In this document: piece after piece, positions 8,343-35,864 of the stretch
Position numbering within the stretch: position 1 is the stretch's first letter
Layout: each line of letters begins with the position of its first letter
Assembly: GCA_017454335.1 (NCBI GenBank)
Contig: JAFTDE010000044.1
Span: forward strand, 1-36,834
Source: Bacteroidales bacterium
Lineage (GTDB): Bacteria > Bacteroidota > Bacteroidia > Bacteroidales > UBA932
Direction of reading: 5' to 3'
Length of the DNA: 36,834 nt
Made by a program: the position numbers and the translations under genes
The notes under the pieces: generated by a model
Database searches by the model: none
What the model was told of the DNA's origin: nothing
Seen by the model: the letters and a program-made list of their open reading frames with translations, nothing else

Positions 8343-8488
8343 TTGCAAATCACCTACGCGGTGGGGAGGGCACTGAGGTGCTTGCGGGGAGTGTTCGGTG
8401 CGTAGGTGCGGCGAAATGGGCTCGCCTACGCGGCGGAAAGGCCTCTCAGGCCGTTGTATATGGGGTTAAGCGCGTAGGTGAATTGCAA
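8343..8488. repeat. Palindromic REPIN/MITE-like element, copy A (146 bp)
   Basis: Bounded by 18-bp imperfect inverted repeats, TTGCAAATCACCTACGCG at 8343-8360 and its complement at 8471-8488 (one mismatch). Four arms are visible: L1 8351-8360, L2 8399-8408, R1 8423-8432 and R2 8471-8480. L1 pairs with R2 and L2 with R1, but L1 can also pair with L2 and R1 with R2, leaving two equal 38-base loops. A 14-base centre between L2 and R1 contains GAAATGG (8413-8419). This is the layout of two REP-like hairpins in inverted orientation. The right end abuts the promoter of the RAYT-type transposase gene. There is no coding capacity. Confidence 0.85.
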
Positions 8489-8489
8489 G

Positions 8490-8520
8490 TTTGCTGGTGT
8501 AAAGATTTCTTCTTATCTTG
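8490..8520 (+). promoter_or_regulatory. Predicted promoter of the RAYT-type transposase
   Basis: TTTG at 8490-8493 is followed after 20 bases by TATCTTG at 8514-8520, close to the Bacteroidetes TTTG-N19/20-TAnnTTTG pattern but one T short. Transcription would start near 8526, which rules out the upstream TTG start at 8518 and supports ATG 8557. The -33 box begins one base after the end of element A. Confidence 0.6.
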
Positions 8521-8556
8521 CACACCAAGCAGCCACTAGCGGCGCGAGATTATGAG

Positions 8557-9525
8557 ATGAAGATTGACAGTCAGCTGCTTCGGCAGATCGAGTCCGATCT
8601 CGGACTCCAGGTCCCTTTCTTCCGGGGACAACAGATTACAGTTAAAAACTGCTGGCATTTTTTTACGGATGGCAGTGCCGTGGATTGGATTTTCCTGGAT
8701 GATGTCGATTATATCCGGGGAATGAACAGGGTGTACATCGTCTCCCGAAAATACCGGATCGTCATCCTGGCATTCAGCCTGATGGGTACACACGTCCATT
8801 TTGTCCTGTACGGCACGTTCGAGGATTGCAACCGTTTCGTGCATGAGTATATTCGAAGAACCTCGATGCACATTGCCCGAAGGCACCGGGAGTGGCATAA
8901 AATGGACGGTGTCAGCATCAGCCATCAGGCGGTGGAAGATGCGGACTATCTGAAGACGGTCATCTGTTATACCATCAAGAATGCTCCTGTCGGCAGGATC
9001 CCGTACAACGCCTATGATTATCCCTGGTGCAGCGGTGCGCTCTATCTCCGTCATTCCGGGAGCTGGACTTCTCCGGCGTGGTCCTATCCGTCGGCACTCC
9101 GTCCGATATCATCCGTCATGTCCTCCCGCCAGCAGGAAAAGCGGCTCGGAACCAACGAAACGCTGACAGGGAATCCGCTGATGATAGGGGACCTGATTTT
9201 CCCGGGGGAGTATGTCGCCTATGAGATCGTTGACCGCCTGTTCGGGACCTGCAGGAGTTTCAATTACTATATGTGCCGGACGAAGGAATCCGATGTCGAT
9301 GCGCATGGCGGGGTGATTTCTATGCTCACCATCCCGCTTCAGGAAATGCGGGAGAACCGTGACATGGTCTGCCGGGAACTCTTCGGAGTCGATACTCCCA
9401 GGCGTCTGAGCACGACGCAGCGGGTAAAACTGGCCCAGACGCTGCGCAGCCGGTACAACAGTTCCGTCAAGCAGATCTGCCGCCTGTGCGGACTGGTTTT
9501 CCAGGAAGTTGGCGATCTGTTGTAA
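8557..9525 (+). CDS. REP-associated tyrosine transposase (RAYT), Y1/HUH family
   Basis: A 322-residue protein of the IS200-like Y1 transposase superfamily, in the subgroup associated with REP sequences. The N-terminal part runs DYIRGMNRVYIVSRKYRIVILAF, and the metal-binding HUH motif is HVH at 79-81 (MGTHVHF). The segment YLKTVICYTIKNAP, followed by DYPWCSG, corresponds to the helix with the catalytic tyrosine, probably Tyr138. The C-terminal stretch with RYNSSVKQICRLCGL looks like a small helix-turn-helix, a common addition in Bacteroidetes members. RAYTs nick single-stranded DNA at REP hairpins, and here palindromic elements flank the gene on both sides. The frame is intact, so it may be active. 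Single-copy domesticated function is also possible. Confidence 0.85.
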   Translation: MKIDSQLLRQIESDLGLQVPFFRGQQITVKNCWHFFTDGSAVDWIFLDDVDYIRGMNRVYIVSRKYRIVILAFSLMGTHVHFVLYGTFEDCNRFVHEYIRRTSMHIARRHREWHKMDGVSISHQAVEDADYLKTVICYTIKNAPVGRIPYNAYDYPWCSGALYLRHSGSWTSPAWSYPSALRPISSVMSSRQQEKRLGTNETLTGNPLMIGDLIFPGEYVAYEIVDRLFGTCRSFNYYMCRTKESDVDAHGGVISMLTIPLQEMRENRDMVCRELFGVDTPRRLSTTQRVKLAQTLRSRYNSSVKQICRLCGLVFQEVGDLL

Positions 9526-9589
9526 AGGCCGGGGCAATCCGTTAACTATGTCTGGTCGGATGGCCCTGTTGCTGGTTAATAAACAGAAG

Positions 9590-9680
9590 TTGCAAATCAC
9601 CTACGCGCCGGGGAGGGCACTGGGGGCCTGTAGGGGGTGTTCGGCGCGTAGGTGCGGCGAAATGGGCTCGCCTACGCGGC
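9590..9680. repeat. Palindromic element, copy C (truncated, 91 bp)
   Basis: Direct repeat of the first 92 positions of copy A, in the same orientation, with about 9 mismatches and one single-base gap by my count. L1 (9598-9607), L2 (9645-9654) and R1 (9669-9678) are present, with GAAATGG at 9659-9665. The fourth arm R2 and the right terminus are missing, and the recombinase stop codon begins 5 bases further on. The 35 bases from the L2 arm to the end are identical to copy A, whereas the differences fall in the loop. At the base of the inner stem a T-G wobble in A is a C-G pair here, which preserves pairing. It may act as a transcript-ending hairpin for both converging genes. Confidence 0.85.
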
Positions 9681-9684
9681 AGGA

Positions 9685-10590
9685 TCAGTCGTCGGTTTTC
9701 TTGGCGCGGGGATGGGCGGCGTTGTAGACGCTTTTGAGGCGTTCGACGGTGTTGTGGGTATAGACCTGGGTGGCGGCGAGGGAGGCGTGGCCGAGGAGTT
9801 CCTTGATGGAGTTCAGGTCTGCTCCGTCGTCCAGCAGTTCGGTGGCCAGGGTGTGGCGCAGCACGTGCGGGGAGAGGCGGCCGTTGATGCCGCTGACTTC
9901 TCCCAGTTCGCGTTTGACGGTCCGGTCCACGAAGACGGGATACAGCCGGCCGCCGCGGGGCGTCAGCAGCAGGGGAGAGCTGTCGTCCGCATCGGGGAAC
10001 GCTGCGTTGGCGCGCTGCAGGTACTGATCCAGATCGTCACAGAGCTCTTCCGGCAGGGGAATCTCGCGGATCTTGTCGCCCTTGCCGTGTACGCGCAAGG
10101 TCCGCCGCGCCAGGTCCAGGTCGCTGCGGTCCGCACCGATGAGTTCGGCGCGGCGGACACCGGTCCCGGCCAGCAGTGCGATGACCATGTAGCGGAGGGC
10201 CGCCTCGTAGGATCCGAATTCCAGCGTGCCCCGCTTCGACGCGAAATAGGCGTCCATGGGGTCCTTGCGGTAGAAATCCGGCAGGCGCTTCTCCTCCCTG
10301 GGCCGGTGCACCAGGTGGACGGGGTTGCTCTGCAGCCGGCCCTGGCGCATCAGGAAGCGGCAGTATCCGCTGAGTACGCTCAGGTGGAGGTTTACGGTCC
10401 TGGCGCCCAAGTCCCTTTCGTCCAGCAGATTGACTTCGTAATTGCGCAGGGTCGCGACGCTGAAGCGCTGCTCGTCGTCCAGTTCGGCCGTATAGGCATA
10501 GAAGTCCTCCAGCACCGCCTGGTAGATGCTGCAGGTCCGCGGGGAGTAGCGGCGGATCGAGGCGAGATAGTCGATGTACTGACGGACCAT
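9685..10590 (-). CDS. XerC/XerD-type tyrosine recombinase
   Basis: A 301-residue tyrosine recombinase with an N-terminal SAM-like core-binding domain (about 1-90) and a C-terminal catalytic domain. The catalytic set is complete: Arg146 in TGVRRAEL, Lys170 in HGKGDKIR, His242 and Arg245 in SPHVLRHTLAT, His268 in LGHASL, and Tyr277 in TQVYTH. Length and motif spacing match chromosomal Xer proteins, which resolve chromosome dimers at dif, rather than phage integrases. The location beside hpf, as I recall for other Bacteroidales genomes, supports a housekeeping role. Whether it is XerC or XerD cannot be decided here. The 3' end nearly touches the truncated palindromic element C, so the island was inserted close behind this gene without damaging it. 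Confidence 0.88.
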   Translation of the reverse strand: MVRQYIDYLASIRRYSPRTCSIYQAVLEDFYAYTAELDDEQRFSVATLRNYEVNLLDERDLGARTVNLHLSVLSGYCRFLMRQGRLQSNPVHLVHRPREEKRLPDFYRKDPMDAYFASKRGTLEFGSYEAALRYMVIALLAGTGVRRAELIGADRSDLDLARRTLRVHGKGDKIREIPLPEELCDDLDQYLQRANAAFPDADDSSPLLLTPRGGRLYPVFVDRTVKRELGEVSGINGRLSPHVLRHTLATELLDDGADLNSIKELLGHASLAATQVYTHNTVERLKSVYNAAHPRAKKTDD

Positions 10591-32077: not shown

Positions 32078-32791
32078 ATGAAAAAGTTTCTTCTCTTTTC
32101 GCTCCTTTGCCTGCTGCCGCTCGCCGGTTCCGCGCAGGAGCGCCTTCACCGCATGCCGGATCCCGAAGCCCAGGTTCCCGCCCACATCGCCGACGCCCCG
32201 CTGTACGGCAAGACCTTCGTCATCATCGGCGACAGCTATGTCCGGAACCATGTCCGCCCCATCGAGGAGACCTGGCACTACAAGCTGGCCGTAAAATACA
32301 ACATGGAATACCGCAATTTCGGCTGGAACGGCAACTGCGTGGCCTATGACCGCACGGATGAGAATTTCGGCCCGCCCATGTACGAGCGCTACAAGGATCT
32401 GCCCGAACAGGCTGACTACCTGGTGGTCTGCGCCGGGCACAACGACGCGACCCGGATGGCCAAGTTCGGCGAGGGAACGGATTTCTTCCGGGAGAAGCTG
32501 GTCGTGCTGATCGAAGGGCTGATCGCCCGTTATCCTTCGGCCAAGCTGTGCTTCGTGACCCCCTGGAAGGTCCCGTCCCCGATGTTTCCGGAGATGACGG
32601 CGGTCCTGCTGGAGGTCTGCGCTTCGTACAGCGTGCCGGTGTTCGACGCCACGCGGCAGAGCGGGATCTACGTCTGGGACGAGAATTTCCGCCGGCTGTA
32701 CTTCCAGTCTCCCTTCGACACGGCCCACCTCAATGCCGCCGGCCACGACCTCTTCCTGCCGAAGATGGAGCATTTCATGCTGGGACTCTGA
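32078..32791 (+). CDS. Secreted SGNH/GDSL hydrolase
   Basis: 237 residues with a signal peptide (MKKFLLFSLLCLLPLAGSAQ). The SGNH blocks are visible: block I FVIIGDSYV with Ser53, block II glycine in FGWNGN, block III AGHND, and block V DTAHLNAAGH with Asp214 and His217. The fold hydrolyses esters of sugars or lipids; in gut Bacteroidales such proteins often deacetylate plant polysaccharides. The exact substrate is not evident. It is a single gene with its own promoter; palindromic element B lies about 100 bases behind it. Confidence 0.85.
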   Translation: MKKFLLFSLLCLLPLAGSAQERLHRMPDPEAQVPAHIADAPLYGKTFVIIGDSYVRNHVRPIEETWHYKLAVKYNMEYRNFGWNGNCVAYDRTDENFGPPMYERYKDLPEQADYLVVCAGHNDATRMAKFGEGTDFFREKLVVLIEGLIARYPSAKLCFVTPWKVPSPMFPEMTAVLLEVCASYSVPVFDATRQSGIYVWDENFRRLYFQSPFDTAHLNAAGHDLFLPKMEHFMLGL

Positions 32792-32894
32792 GGTCCTGTG
32801 GTCCTGGTGCCCGGCTTTCGGCCTTCTTAGTGTCTCTTAGCACCTCTTGGTGGCTCTATCTGTTCTATCCGGCAGCGGAGGGGTCGTTGGGGTT

Positions 32895-33040
32895 TTGTAG
32901 AAAGTGAAGCACGCGGAGATGCCATAGAGGCCCTTCTGTGAGGGGTGCGTGTGCTCAGAGGGCTGAAATGGCGGGTCTGAGCACAGGGGCATGCCATACA
33001 GGGCAGTGGGAGGCCGGTCTGCGTGCTTCACTTTCTACAA
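32895..33040. repeat. Palindromic REPIN/MITE-like element, copy B (146 bp)
   Basis: Bounded by perfect 20-bp inverted repeats (TTGTAGAAAGTGAAGCACGC at 32895-32914 and its complement at 33021-33040). An inner 9-bp perfect hairpin pairs GTGCTCAGA (32951-32959) with TCTGAGCAC (32976-32984). Between them lies GAAATGG (32965-32971). Length, position of the inner stem (element bases 57-65 with 82-90) and position of GAAATGG (71-77) are identical to copy A, yet most arm bases differ. Outer and inner arms can also pair side by side, 32908-32912 with 32951-32955 and 32979-32984 with 33023-33028. A 9-bp direct repeat GGGGTCGTT flanks it at 32880-32888 and 33055-33063. Confidence 0.85.
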
Positions 33041-33209
33041 ACCTGTTGTGCCGCGGGGTCGTTCGTTCTCGGTCCCAAGCAAACGGACTTCCGGTCAGGA
33101 CGGGGGCGACAAAAACGACGGAGAAGGCCTTACAAAACGATCCTGCGTTTCGAGTTTTTCCGCTGCGGAACTGCCCCAGGCAAAATGTTCAAACTTGCAA
33201 ACTTATTGT
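33041..33209. other. Non-coding DNA between element B and the valS promoter
   Basis: No ORF with support and no obvious T-box or other tRNA-responsive leader is seen here, although it precedes valS. The DNA is GC-rich for its first half and becomes AT-rich towards the promoter. Confidence 0.5.
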
Positions 33210-33217
33210 TATCTTTG
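33210..33217 (+). promoter_or_regulatory. Predicted -7 box of valS
   Basis: TATCTTTG matches TAnnTTTG exactly and ends 7 bases before the ATG at 33225, so the message would have almost no leader. No clear TTTG is found at the -33 position. Confidence 0.6.
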
Positions 33218-33224
33218 CAAGATT

Positions 33225-35864
<2,640 letters not shown>

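Follow-up and report, generated by a model that had tools for sequence, protein, structure and literature searches.

Element B of a Bacteroidales contig, a probable REPIN-like palindrome from a family with a constant frame and changing stem words

Element B is a palindromic sequence with a 146-bp core at 32895..33040 (+ strand) of contig JAFTDE010000044.1 from the Bacteroidales assembly GCA_017454335.1, a stretch of 36,834 nt that is referred to here in its entirety as the window. It is very probably a non-autonomous, REPIN-like palindromic element of ~154 bp, of two-layer design and with a cognate TnpA-Y1 transposase for each stem word. The evidence, all of it computed, comprises a family of related elements whose frame is constant and whose stems covary, co-divergence of the stems with the neighbouring RAYT (TnpA-Y1) proteins, a correlation between one RAYT residue and one stem base, breakpoints at the element edges, the lack of target duplication and the predicted protein fold. 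Taken together, these features point to elements of a divergent RAYT lineage without the canonical GTAG foot, by whose proteins they would be bound and mobilized.

Element architecture and covariation

The outer arms of element B (32895-32914 and 33021-33040) pair over the first 20 bases without a mismatch, and its inner arms (32950-32959 and 32976-32985, element bases 56-65 with 82-91) pair over ten bases around the centre GAAATGG at 32965-32971. Element A, at 8343..8488 (+ strand) on the 5' side of the RAYT gene of the window, carries a different stem word, CACCTACGCG, and pairs at 17 of 18 outer bases and over seven inner bases (58-64 with 83-89). The original prediction, made from the letters of the window, was accurate in that both elements are exactly 146 bp, hold GAAATGG at bases 71-77 and have outer repeats that start with TTG and end with CAA; the inner pairing of base 57 with base 90 that it gave for both is found in B and does not apply to A. 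It had also described the arms as mostly different, and A and B indeed agree at 62 of 146 bases overall and at only 20 of 66 in the arms, which identifies the arms as the diverged part. Element C (approximately 9590..9680, + strand), on the 3' side of the same gene, is a truncated A-type copy with arms 1-3, in which GAAATGG stands at base 70, one base earlier than in A and B. Concentric double palindromes (outer score of at least 15, inner of at least 7) number two in the window and none in six dinucleotide shuffles, and the folding of B as single-stranded DNA has a z-score of -9.26 against 200 shuffles. The pattern GAAATGGCGGGTC, allowed three mismatches, was uninformative in the window, with 16 matches and 16.1 expected. 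Pairing reaches ~4 bp beyond the originally reported ends on each side and, by analogy with the ends of relatives, the full palindromic unit of B would span ~32891-33044.

Alignment A2 was used to search named genomes and gave 106 loci, of which the best 80 were kept. The carriers of these 80 are titled Bacteroidales or Bacteroidia, with the exception of one Candidatus Cacconaster, and many are ruminant-gut samples by title. Scanning the 80 loci for concentric palindromes identified 68 elements in 49 loci, and none in one shuffled set; an earlier palindrome scan of 70 loci had given 47 elements, against 1.0 per shuffled set. The consensus of 42 of the 49 first elements, aligned gap-free on their centres once seven with odd-length centres had been dropped, contains a constant frame made up of AACCCGAAATTC and GAATTTCGGGTT as end boxes, of spacer motifs and, in the middle, of GAGGCAAAATCGCC, with four variable arms standing between the frame parts. 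Relatives have the end-box consensus CAACCCGAAATTC...GAATTTCGGGTTG, and the GT[AG]G hairpin foot is absent from the frame consensus CAACCCGAAATTC; GTAG is present near the ends of most B copies and absent in A. Most of the loci belong to an A-like clade, and B's own clade, that of the RAYT on contig C62 of the source genome, is sampled less. The proposed design has two layers: a constant layer would comprise the end boxes, the spacer motifs and a GGC-AAAAT-GCC-like central loop, whilst in the variable layer a stem word of ~8-10 nt would be written once in each of the four arms, arms 2 and 4 having it inverted relative to arms 1 and 3. With such an arrangement, a single strand has two possible folds, either a long hairpin or two hairpins next to each other. 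Tandem half-element arrays with a period of ~73 bp lie beside C62-like RAYTs at two loci (L076, 849-1123; L083, 1045-1463) and suggest that the half-element is the basic unit. At three further loci (L062, L096 and L101), more distant RAYTs are flanked by elements of 170-176 bp with the same concentric design and another centre.

Covariation was assessed in alignment A4, a nearly gap-free set of 34 elements (six from the source genome and 28 hand-picked from the 49). Its 34 pairs form in 88.0% of cells, compared with 34.1-44.1% in slid registers; two-sided changes occur at all 34 pairs, and five measures were reached by none of 500 shuffles. As a palindrome scan selects for pairing, the scan elements alone do not prove covariation, and a second search was therefore made with a sequence-only profile trained on A4 (E below 1e-4). 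This located 111 places in 64 of the 80 loci, including 51 that the palindrome scan had missed, some of them close to training rows; in these 51, one register pairs at 80.8% (outer) and 82.2% (inner), and other registers at 32-43%. With this ascertainment control in place, the claim that pairing is kept while sequence changes, first made for A and B, is supported. Arms 1 and 2, too, complement each other in a single fixed register (0.77 versus 0.22-0.33, and 0.75 versus 0.37-0.40 in the 51), so that each element carries one stem word four times and has two alternative folds. Without the register the comparison of arms is weaker, 40 of 68 elements falling below 5%. Two inverted hairpin units of the REP/REPIN type are present through arm1:arm4 and arm1:arm2 pairing, the latter weak in B. 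The fourfold stem word goes beyond the original prediction, as do the outer ends, the variable centre motif and the residue-base correspondence described below. A MAFFT alignment of nine elements from the source genome was set aside, B being gapped against A and D and the register broken; the wider set aligned almost gap-free.

Stem types and RAYT paralogues

It had been proposed at the outset that such structured elements form a family in which several stem types occur, each perhaps with its own RAYT. Within the source genome, three stem types are each located next to a RAYT paralogue of their own (A/C30, B/C62 and D/C8, by contig), and in related metagenome-assembled genomes of Bacteroidales the frame stays constant as the stems change; together with the co-divergence set out below, these pairs support the proposal. 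A search of the genome with B recovered five more copies across all 146 columns (75-90% identity), on C42, C20 and C43 (contig starts) and two at C62; dispersed copies of 89-90% identity are among them. Between the two copies at C62 lies a TnpA-like gene (C62:29196-30098, 301 aa), which is the kind of B-flanked paralogue that the original prediction had suggested looking for. Stem type D (146 bp) flanks the RAYT gene on C8, with one copy immediately upstream and a second ~1.25 kb past the 3' end of the gene, another open reading frame (ORF) lying between; further D copies are found on C35, C39 and C12. Copies in the assembly number two for A, five for D and six for B. Two contigs (L023 and L024, positions 1-179) open with the same 22 bp followed by a B copy, and they are alike for another ~11 bp past it; they seem to be broken at the repeat, so that the number of B copies may be underestimated. 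When cut between homologous ends, the 12 full copies (one of A, six of B and five of D) each measure 146 bp. The common length and register on which the original claim depended are kept in all 12, whilst the GAAATGG centre is kept only partly: it occurs in four of the six B copies, the two beside the C62 RAYT having GCCATCTGGGC instead, and AAAT is found at one common place in A, in four of six B copies and in five of five D copies, D sharing only AAAT of the centre. Cognate palindromes that both flank the gene and recur elsewhere, as in a REPtron, are found in the assembly for B and D and not for A.

A covariance model of the kind first suggested (R1, 34 elements) matches further places, some with other stem words. 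In the window, it scores 106 bits on B (32889-33046) and 112 bits on A, both training rows, and 29.8 bits on C (9584-9725), which is outside the training set. In the source genome it finds 16 distinct places at E<=0.1, six of which are training rows; the non-training places C17:4793-4950 and C39:9577-9724 (degenerate) carry further stem words. A search of the same genome with the window RAYT protein gave seven matches, the window's own included, and none on contigs C17 and C39. Two more paralogues, on C10 (L026, 2751-2838) and C34 (L027, 1677-1769), are accompanied by pairs of short, perfect hairpins that span 88-93 bp and carry yet other stem words (CGTGCAAGGTGTCCCG; TGTGCTTAGGCTCC).

The divergent RAYT/TnpA-Y1 gene of the window (8518..9525, + strand) encodes 335 aa if read from TTG 8518, whilst ATG 8557 fits the start of its relatives; proteins of the lineage are ~300-340 aa in size. 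It possesses an HUH motif (His92/His94) and Tyr151, putative catalytic residues that are invariant among 49 aligned RAYT proteins (19 of 67 intact proteins fall outside the structure alignment), and its residue 117 is Met (Ile in the C8 RAYT), located within a predicted helix (101-123) directly after the HUH strand. The predicted fold matches E. coli TnpAREP in a fold search, by which alone TnpA was found; when a profile of the 49 RAYTs was run against PDB sequences, the sole match was a ribosomal protein at E 0.24. Three proteins were scanned against family models: two reach 15.1 and 15.3 bits with Pfam Y1_Tnp (cut-off 23), for which the C62 protein gives no match, and one reaches 19 bits with NCBIfam REP_Tyr_transpos (cut-off 80). 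Where the class 2 signature Y---NP would stand, the C8 protein reads YTIKNP and the window protein YTIKNA.

The RAYT set comprised 80 named proteins and two from the source genome, with 71 loci having at least 700 bp on both sides. An element lies within 700 bp at 58 of these 71, and one on each side at 39. Co-divergence and residue analyses used 66 of the 82 RAYTs, 16 without a usable element being dropped, and the pairs are not independent. Mean stem identity is 94% for RAYTs at least 90% identical (10 pairs), 75% at 80-90% (18 pairs), 64% at 70-80% (41 pairs) and 32-34% lower down; over the same classes, frame identity is 95%, 80%, 76% and then 61-69%. Between A with the window RAYT and D with the C8 RAYT, the proteins are 68% identical, the stems 41% and the frames 80%. 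Among 149 genomes of the taxonomic family, R1 matches in all 24 with a close RAYT (E<=1e-60 or, in a second search, E<=1e-40) and in nine of the 125 others (Fisher p 1e-20), a count that is not independent, R1 being partly built from the genomes counted; five of the nine have a single weak match and four are clear. Position and co-divergence together suggest that a RAYT serves its stem type. One of the four, G004, contains 19 R1 matches (best E 2e-10) and no match to the window RAYT.

Residue 117 of the RAYT and base 12 of the stem

Mutual information was calculated between RAYT columns and 11 stem columns, column 20 of A4 being element base 12 (C in element A, at 8354 on the + strand, as placed from that column). 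Residue 117 and column 20 form the top pair (z 18.0), the next other residue among those listed reaching 9.7. Amongst the 66 pairs, base 12 is C with M (12/12), Q (9/9) and C (3/3), T with I (5/5), A or G with W (19/19) and A with H (3/3); R is accompanied by A in 11 pairs and T in three, and K by T in one. After thinning at 80% identity (47 representatives), z is 14.6 compared with a maximum of 8.4 in 200 permutations, and after thinning at 70% it is 9.6 compared with 8.3. Leave-one-out prediction of base 12 succeeds in 38 of 45 cases from residue 117 and in 23 of 47 when the closest RAYT relative is used instead. For RAYT pairs at 60-70% identity, the base is shared in 31 of 53 with the same residue 117 and in 55 of 269 with a different one. 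A held-out set, for which the rule was fixed beforehand, gave 61 pairs from 80 further loci; 52 are copies (>=97%) of discovery RAYTs and constitute no test. Nine are <=83% identical, eight of them with a covered residue, and all eight obey the rule (~6e-5 from base frequencies, ancestry ignored); the ninth combines the unseen residue A with base C. Across relatives, residue 117 largely predicts stem base 12.

We consider it rather probable that, in this RAYT lineage, the correspondence amounts to a natural code for the recognition of single-stranded DNA hairpins, residue 117 specifying one stem-foot base and other bases depending more weakly on residues 110 and 113 and on the stretch 204-214. 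As read, M, Q or C would specify C; I (and K in one pair) T; W A or G; R A or T; and H A. According to the account in PMC8266576, the DNA-binding helix alpha3 of E. coli TnpAREP contacts the hairpin through K82; judged from the order of helices rather than from a residue alignment, RAYT helix 101-123 would be its equivalent. Other results count against the code. At 65% thinning (23 left) the pair is still at the top, but its z of 6.2 is below the permutation maximum of 9.6. Columns 18 and 19 are predicted by residue 117 about as often (37/45 and 39/45), one base being commoner there from the outset, so that a reading of one residue for one base is not isolated. The RAYT pairs share ancestry, and a strict tree test is underpowered, having only three supported contrasts per grouping with none discordant (p 0.25 or more), the M/Q/C versus C contrasts all being concordant (n=3, p 0.25). 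In the B-serving C62 clade the rule lacks alignable elements, the sequence profile reaching E<=1e-3 at three of 19 loci.

If the code is true, new stem families would arise as helix and stem change step by step within a frame that stays the same. The question addressed is how a RAYT chooses its own repeat and how new repeat families originate. An experimental study compared three enzyme-repeat pairs, as presented in PMC8266576; the family described here supplies natural pairs by the dozen, with differing stem words set in a fixed frame, and a specific residue-base prediction that is testable in vitro.

Element ends, movement and related systems

In alignments of RAYT loci (high-scoring segment pairs of up to 96% identity), homology on the left stops <=15 bp from the outer element edge in 11 of 16 comparisons (four run past it and one stops short) and on the right in five of nine (two past, two short). 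Across 84 distinct contexts, pairing and conservation end ~2 bases inside a 158-bp frame, from which the unit of ~154 bp follows. Flanking direct repeats or target-site duplications show no excess over shuffled pairs in these contexts at ten offsets, which fits single-strand HUH chemistry and speaks against a miniature inverted-repeat transposable element (MITE) of the DDE type. The breakpoints suggest movement of the REPIN type by the RAYT, and the elements may accordingly be mobile. Each stem word would be served by a cognate TnpA-Y1, whose gene is usually adjoined by elements of that type; the enzyme probably binds the stem foot through the helix that follows the HUH motif, with residue 117 reading base 12. 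Cleavage and joining of single-stranded DNA would follow at the ends of the element by HUH/Tyr chemistry, for which replication forks are the likeliest setting. At one locus (L123, 2139-3990), ~1.85 kb between the RAYT and the 3' element is absent there in the close relatives L120 and L170, possibly as cargo or a later insertion.

A number of observations weigh against the REPIN-like reading. The B copies that flank the C62 gene differ in centre from the dispersed B copies, the arm1:arm2 match of B is short (7 of 14 positions), and the A type has no copy in its own genome beyond the flanks of the window RAYT. No element lies within 700 bp at 13 of 71 RAYT loci, and genomes G004, G051, G096 and G140 have clear elements and no close RAYT. 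Homology overruns the element edge in six of 25 comparisons and stops short in three, and the compared pairs share loci. Finally, no insertion was caught against an empty site when the valyl-tRNA synthetase (valS) gene, its upstream gene and B were used as a query against 61 genomes of the genus: 55 matched (own included), over the valS part in those listed, and the upstream gene aligned in one other listed genome only, at a different place.

The best placed of the alternatives, although improbable, is a domesticated host system, in which RAYT and elements are immobile, the elements act as host structures (at the replication fork, in supercoiling or at mRNA ends) and co-evolution concerns binding only. 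Low copy number is compatible with it, as is the intergenic location of all ten source-genome copies checked (those at C8 and C62 left out), which lie between ORFs of at least 200 aa save for two overlaps, with an over-extended-looking ORF (B, upstream of the valS start) and a spurious-looking one (one D copy); PMC8266576 also describes RAYTs elsewhere as domesticated and as close to housekeeping genes. However, related RAYT-element cassettes occur in different contexts with breaks at the element edges, close RAYTs are patchily distributed (58 of 398 genomes of the taxonomic family), and dispersed copies of the high identity given above exist. A structured RNA or transcription terminator, with stems covarying to keep an RNA fold, is very unlikely: the hairpins are strong and B sits between a lipase-like gene and valS, yet Rfam gives no match up to E 1 in window 32500-33500, both orientations occur beside RAYTs (+/- 19/33 on the 5' side and 19/27 on the 3' side), the stem sequence tracks the neighbouring transposase and one stem word is repeated four times. 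An ordinary DDE MITE, which the terminal inverted repeats and small size might suggest, can be practically dismissed given the lack of flanking duplication, the HUH/Y1 rather than DDE fold of the associated gene and the internal four-arm design. Integron attC sites are likewise folded single-strand sites of variable sequence and kept structure. They are also mentioned in PMC8266576. The gene adjoining the elements is a Y1 transposase, integrase links beyond the loci shown not being sought, and the attC reading was dropped, no dedicated search being made.

The REPIN-like elements are closest to the REPtrons formed by REP/REPIN and RAYT (TnpAREP), described as palindromic repeats flanking an HUH/Y1 gene (Quentin 2018, PMC6006769; Corneloup 2021, PMC8266576), with each RAYT having its own repeat type and several types able to share a genome in the account of PMC6006769. 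The predicted protein fold is also that of TnpAREP. In contrast to REP/REPIN, the frame consensus has no GT[AG]G foot, a unit of ~154 bp combines four arms with a constant frame, and the proteins, of ~300-340 aa, fall below the Pfam Y1_Tnp and NCBIfam cut-offs in the three scanned. The system works like a REPtron with REPINs, yet it is not canonical REP. RAYT groups were reportedly defined by Bertels in 2017. The TIRYT/TIRtrons (Di Nocera 2013, PMC3733652; most of them in subclass 2.1 of PMC6006769) resemble the present system in a long C-terminal extension and, as described in PMC3733652, in long, sometimes self-complementary inverted repeats that frame RAYT-like genes in moderate families; their motif GGGGWSAS is absent from the frame consensus, and a fixed frame with swapped stems does not appear in the portions of PMC3733652 and PMC6006769 that deal with them. 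TnpAY1 subclass 2.6/RAYT group 5, as outlined in PMC6006769, occurs in the same phylum, Bacteroidetes, and is flanked by atypical structures that lack GT[AG]G and were identified manually; compared by description only, it differs in its median of 179 aa and motif YIH[QN]NP from the 335 aa and Y---N[AP] found here. In a search of the open-access literature, neither this lineage of Bacteroidales nor a constant frame whose four arms are swapped nor a residue-base rule was found in print, and the family adds a small, apparently undescribed class of mobile-like elements to Bacteroidales. On the 3' side of B, window 33119-33177 is 83% like G000:C42:9129-9187 and by eye resembles the repeats beside the RAYT on C52 (GCRGAATTTTYGCCGATTTTTCCGCAGAA); it is perhaps a second repeat class.
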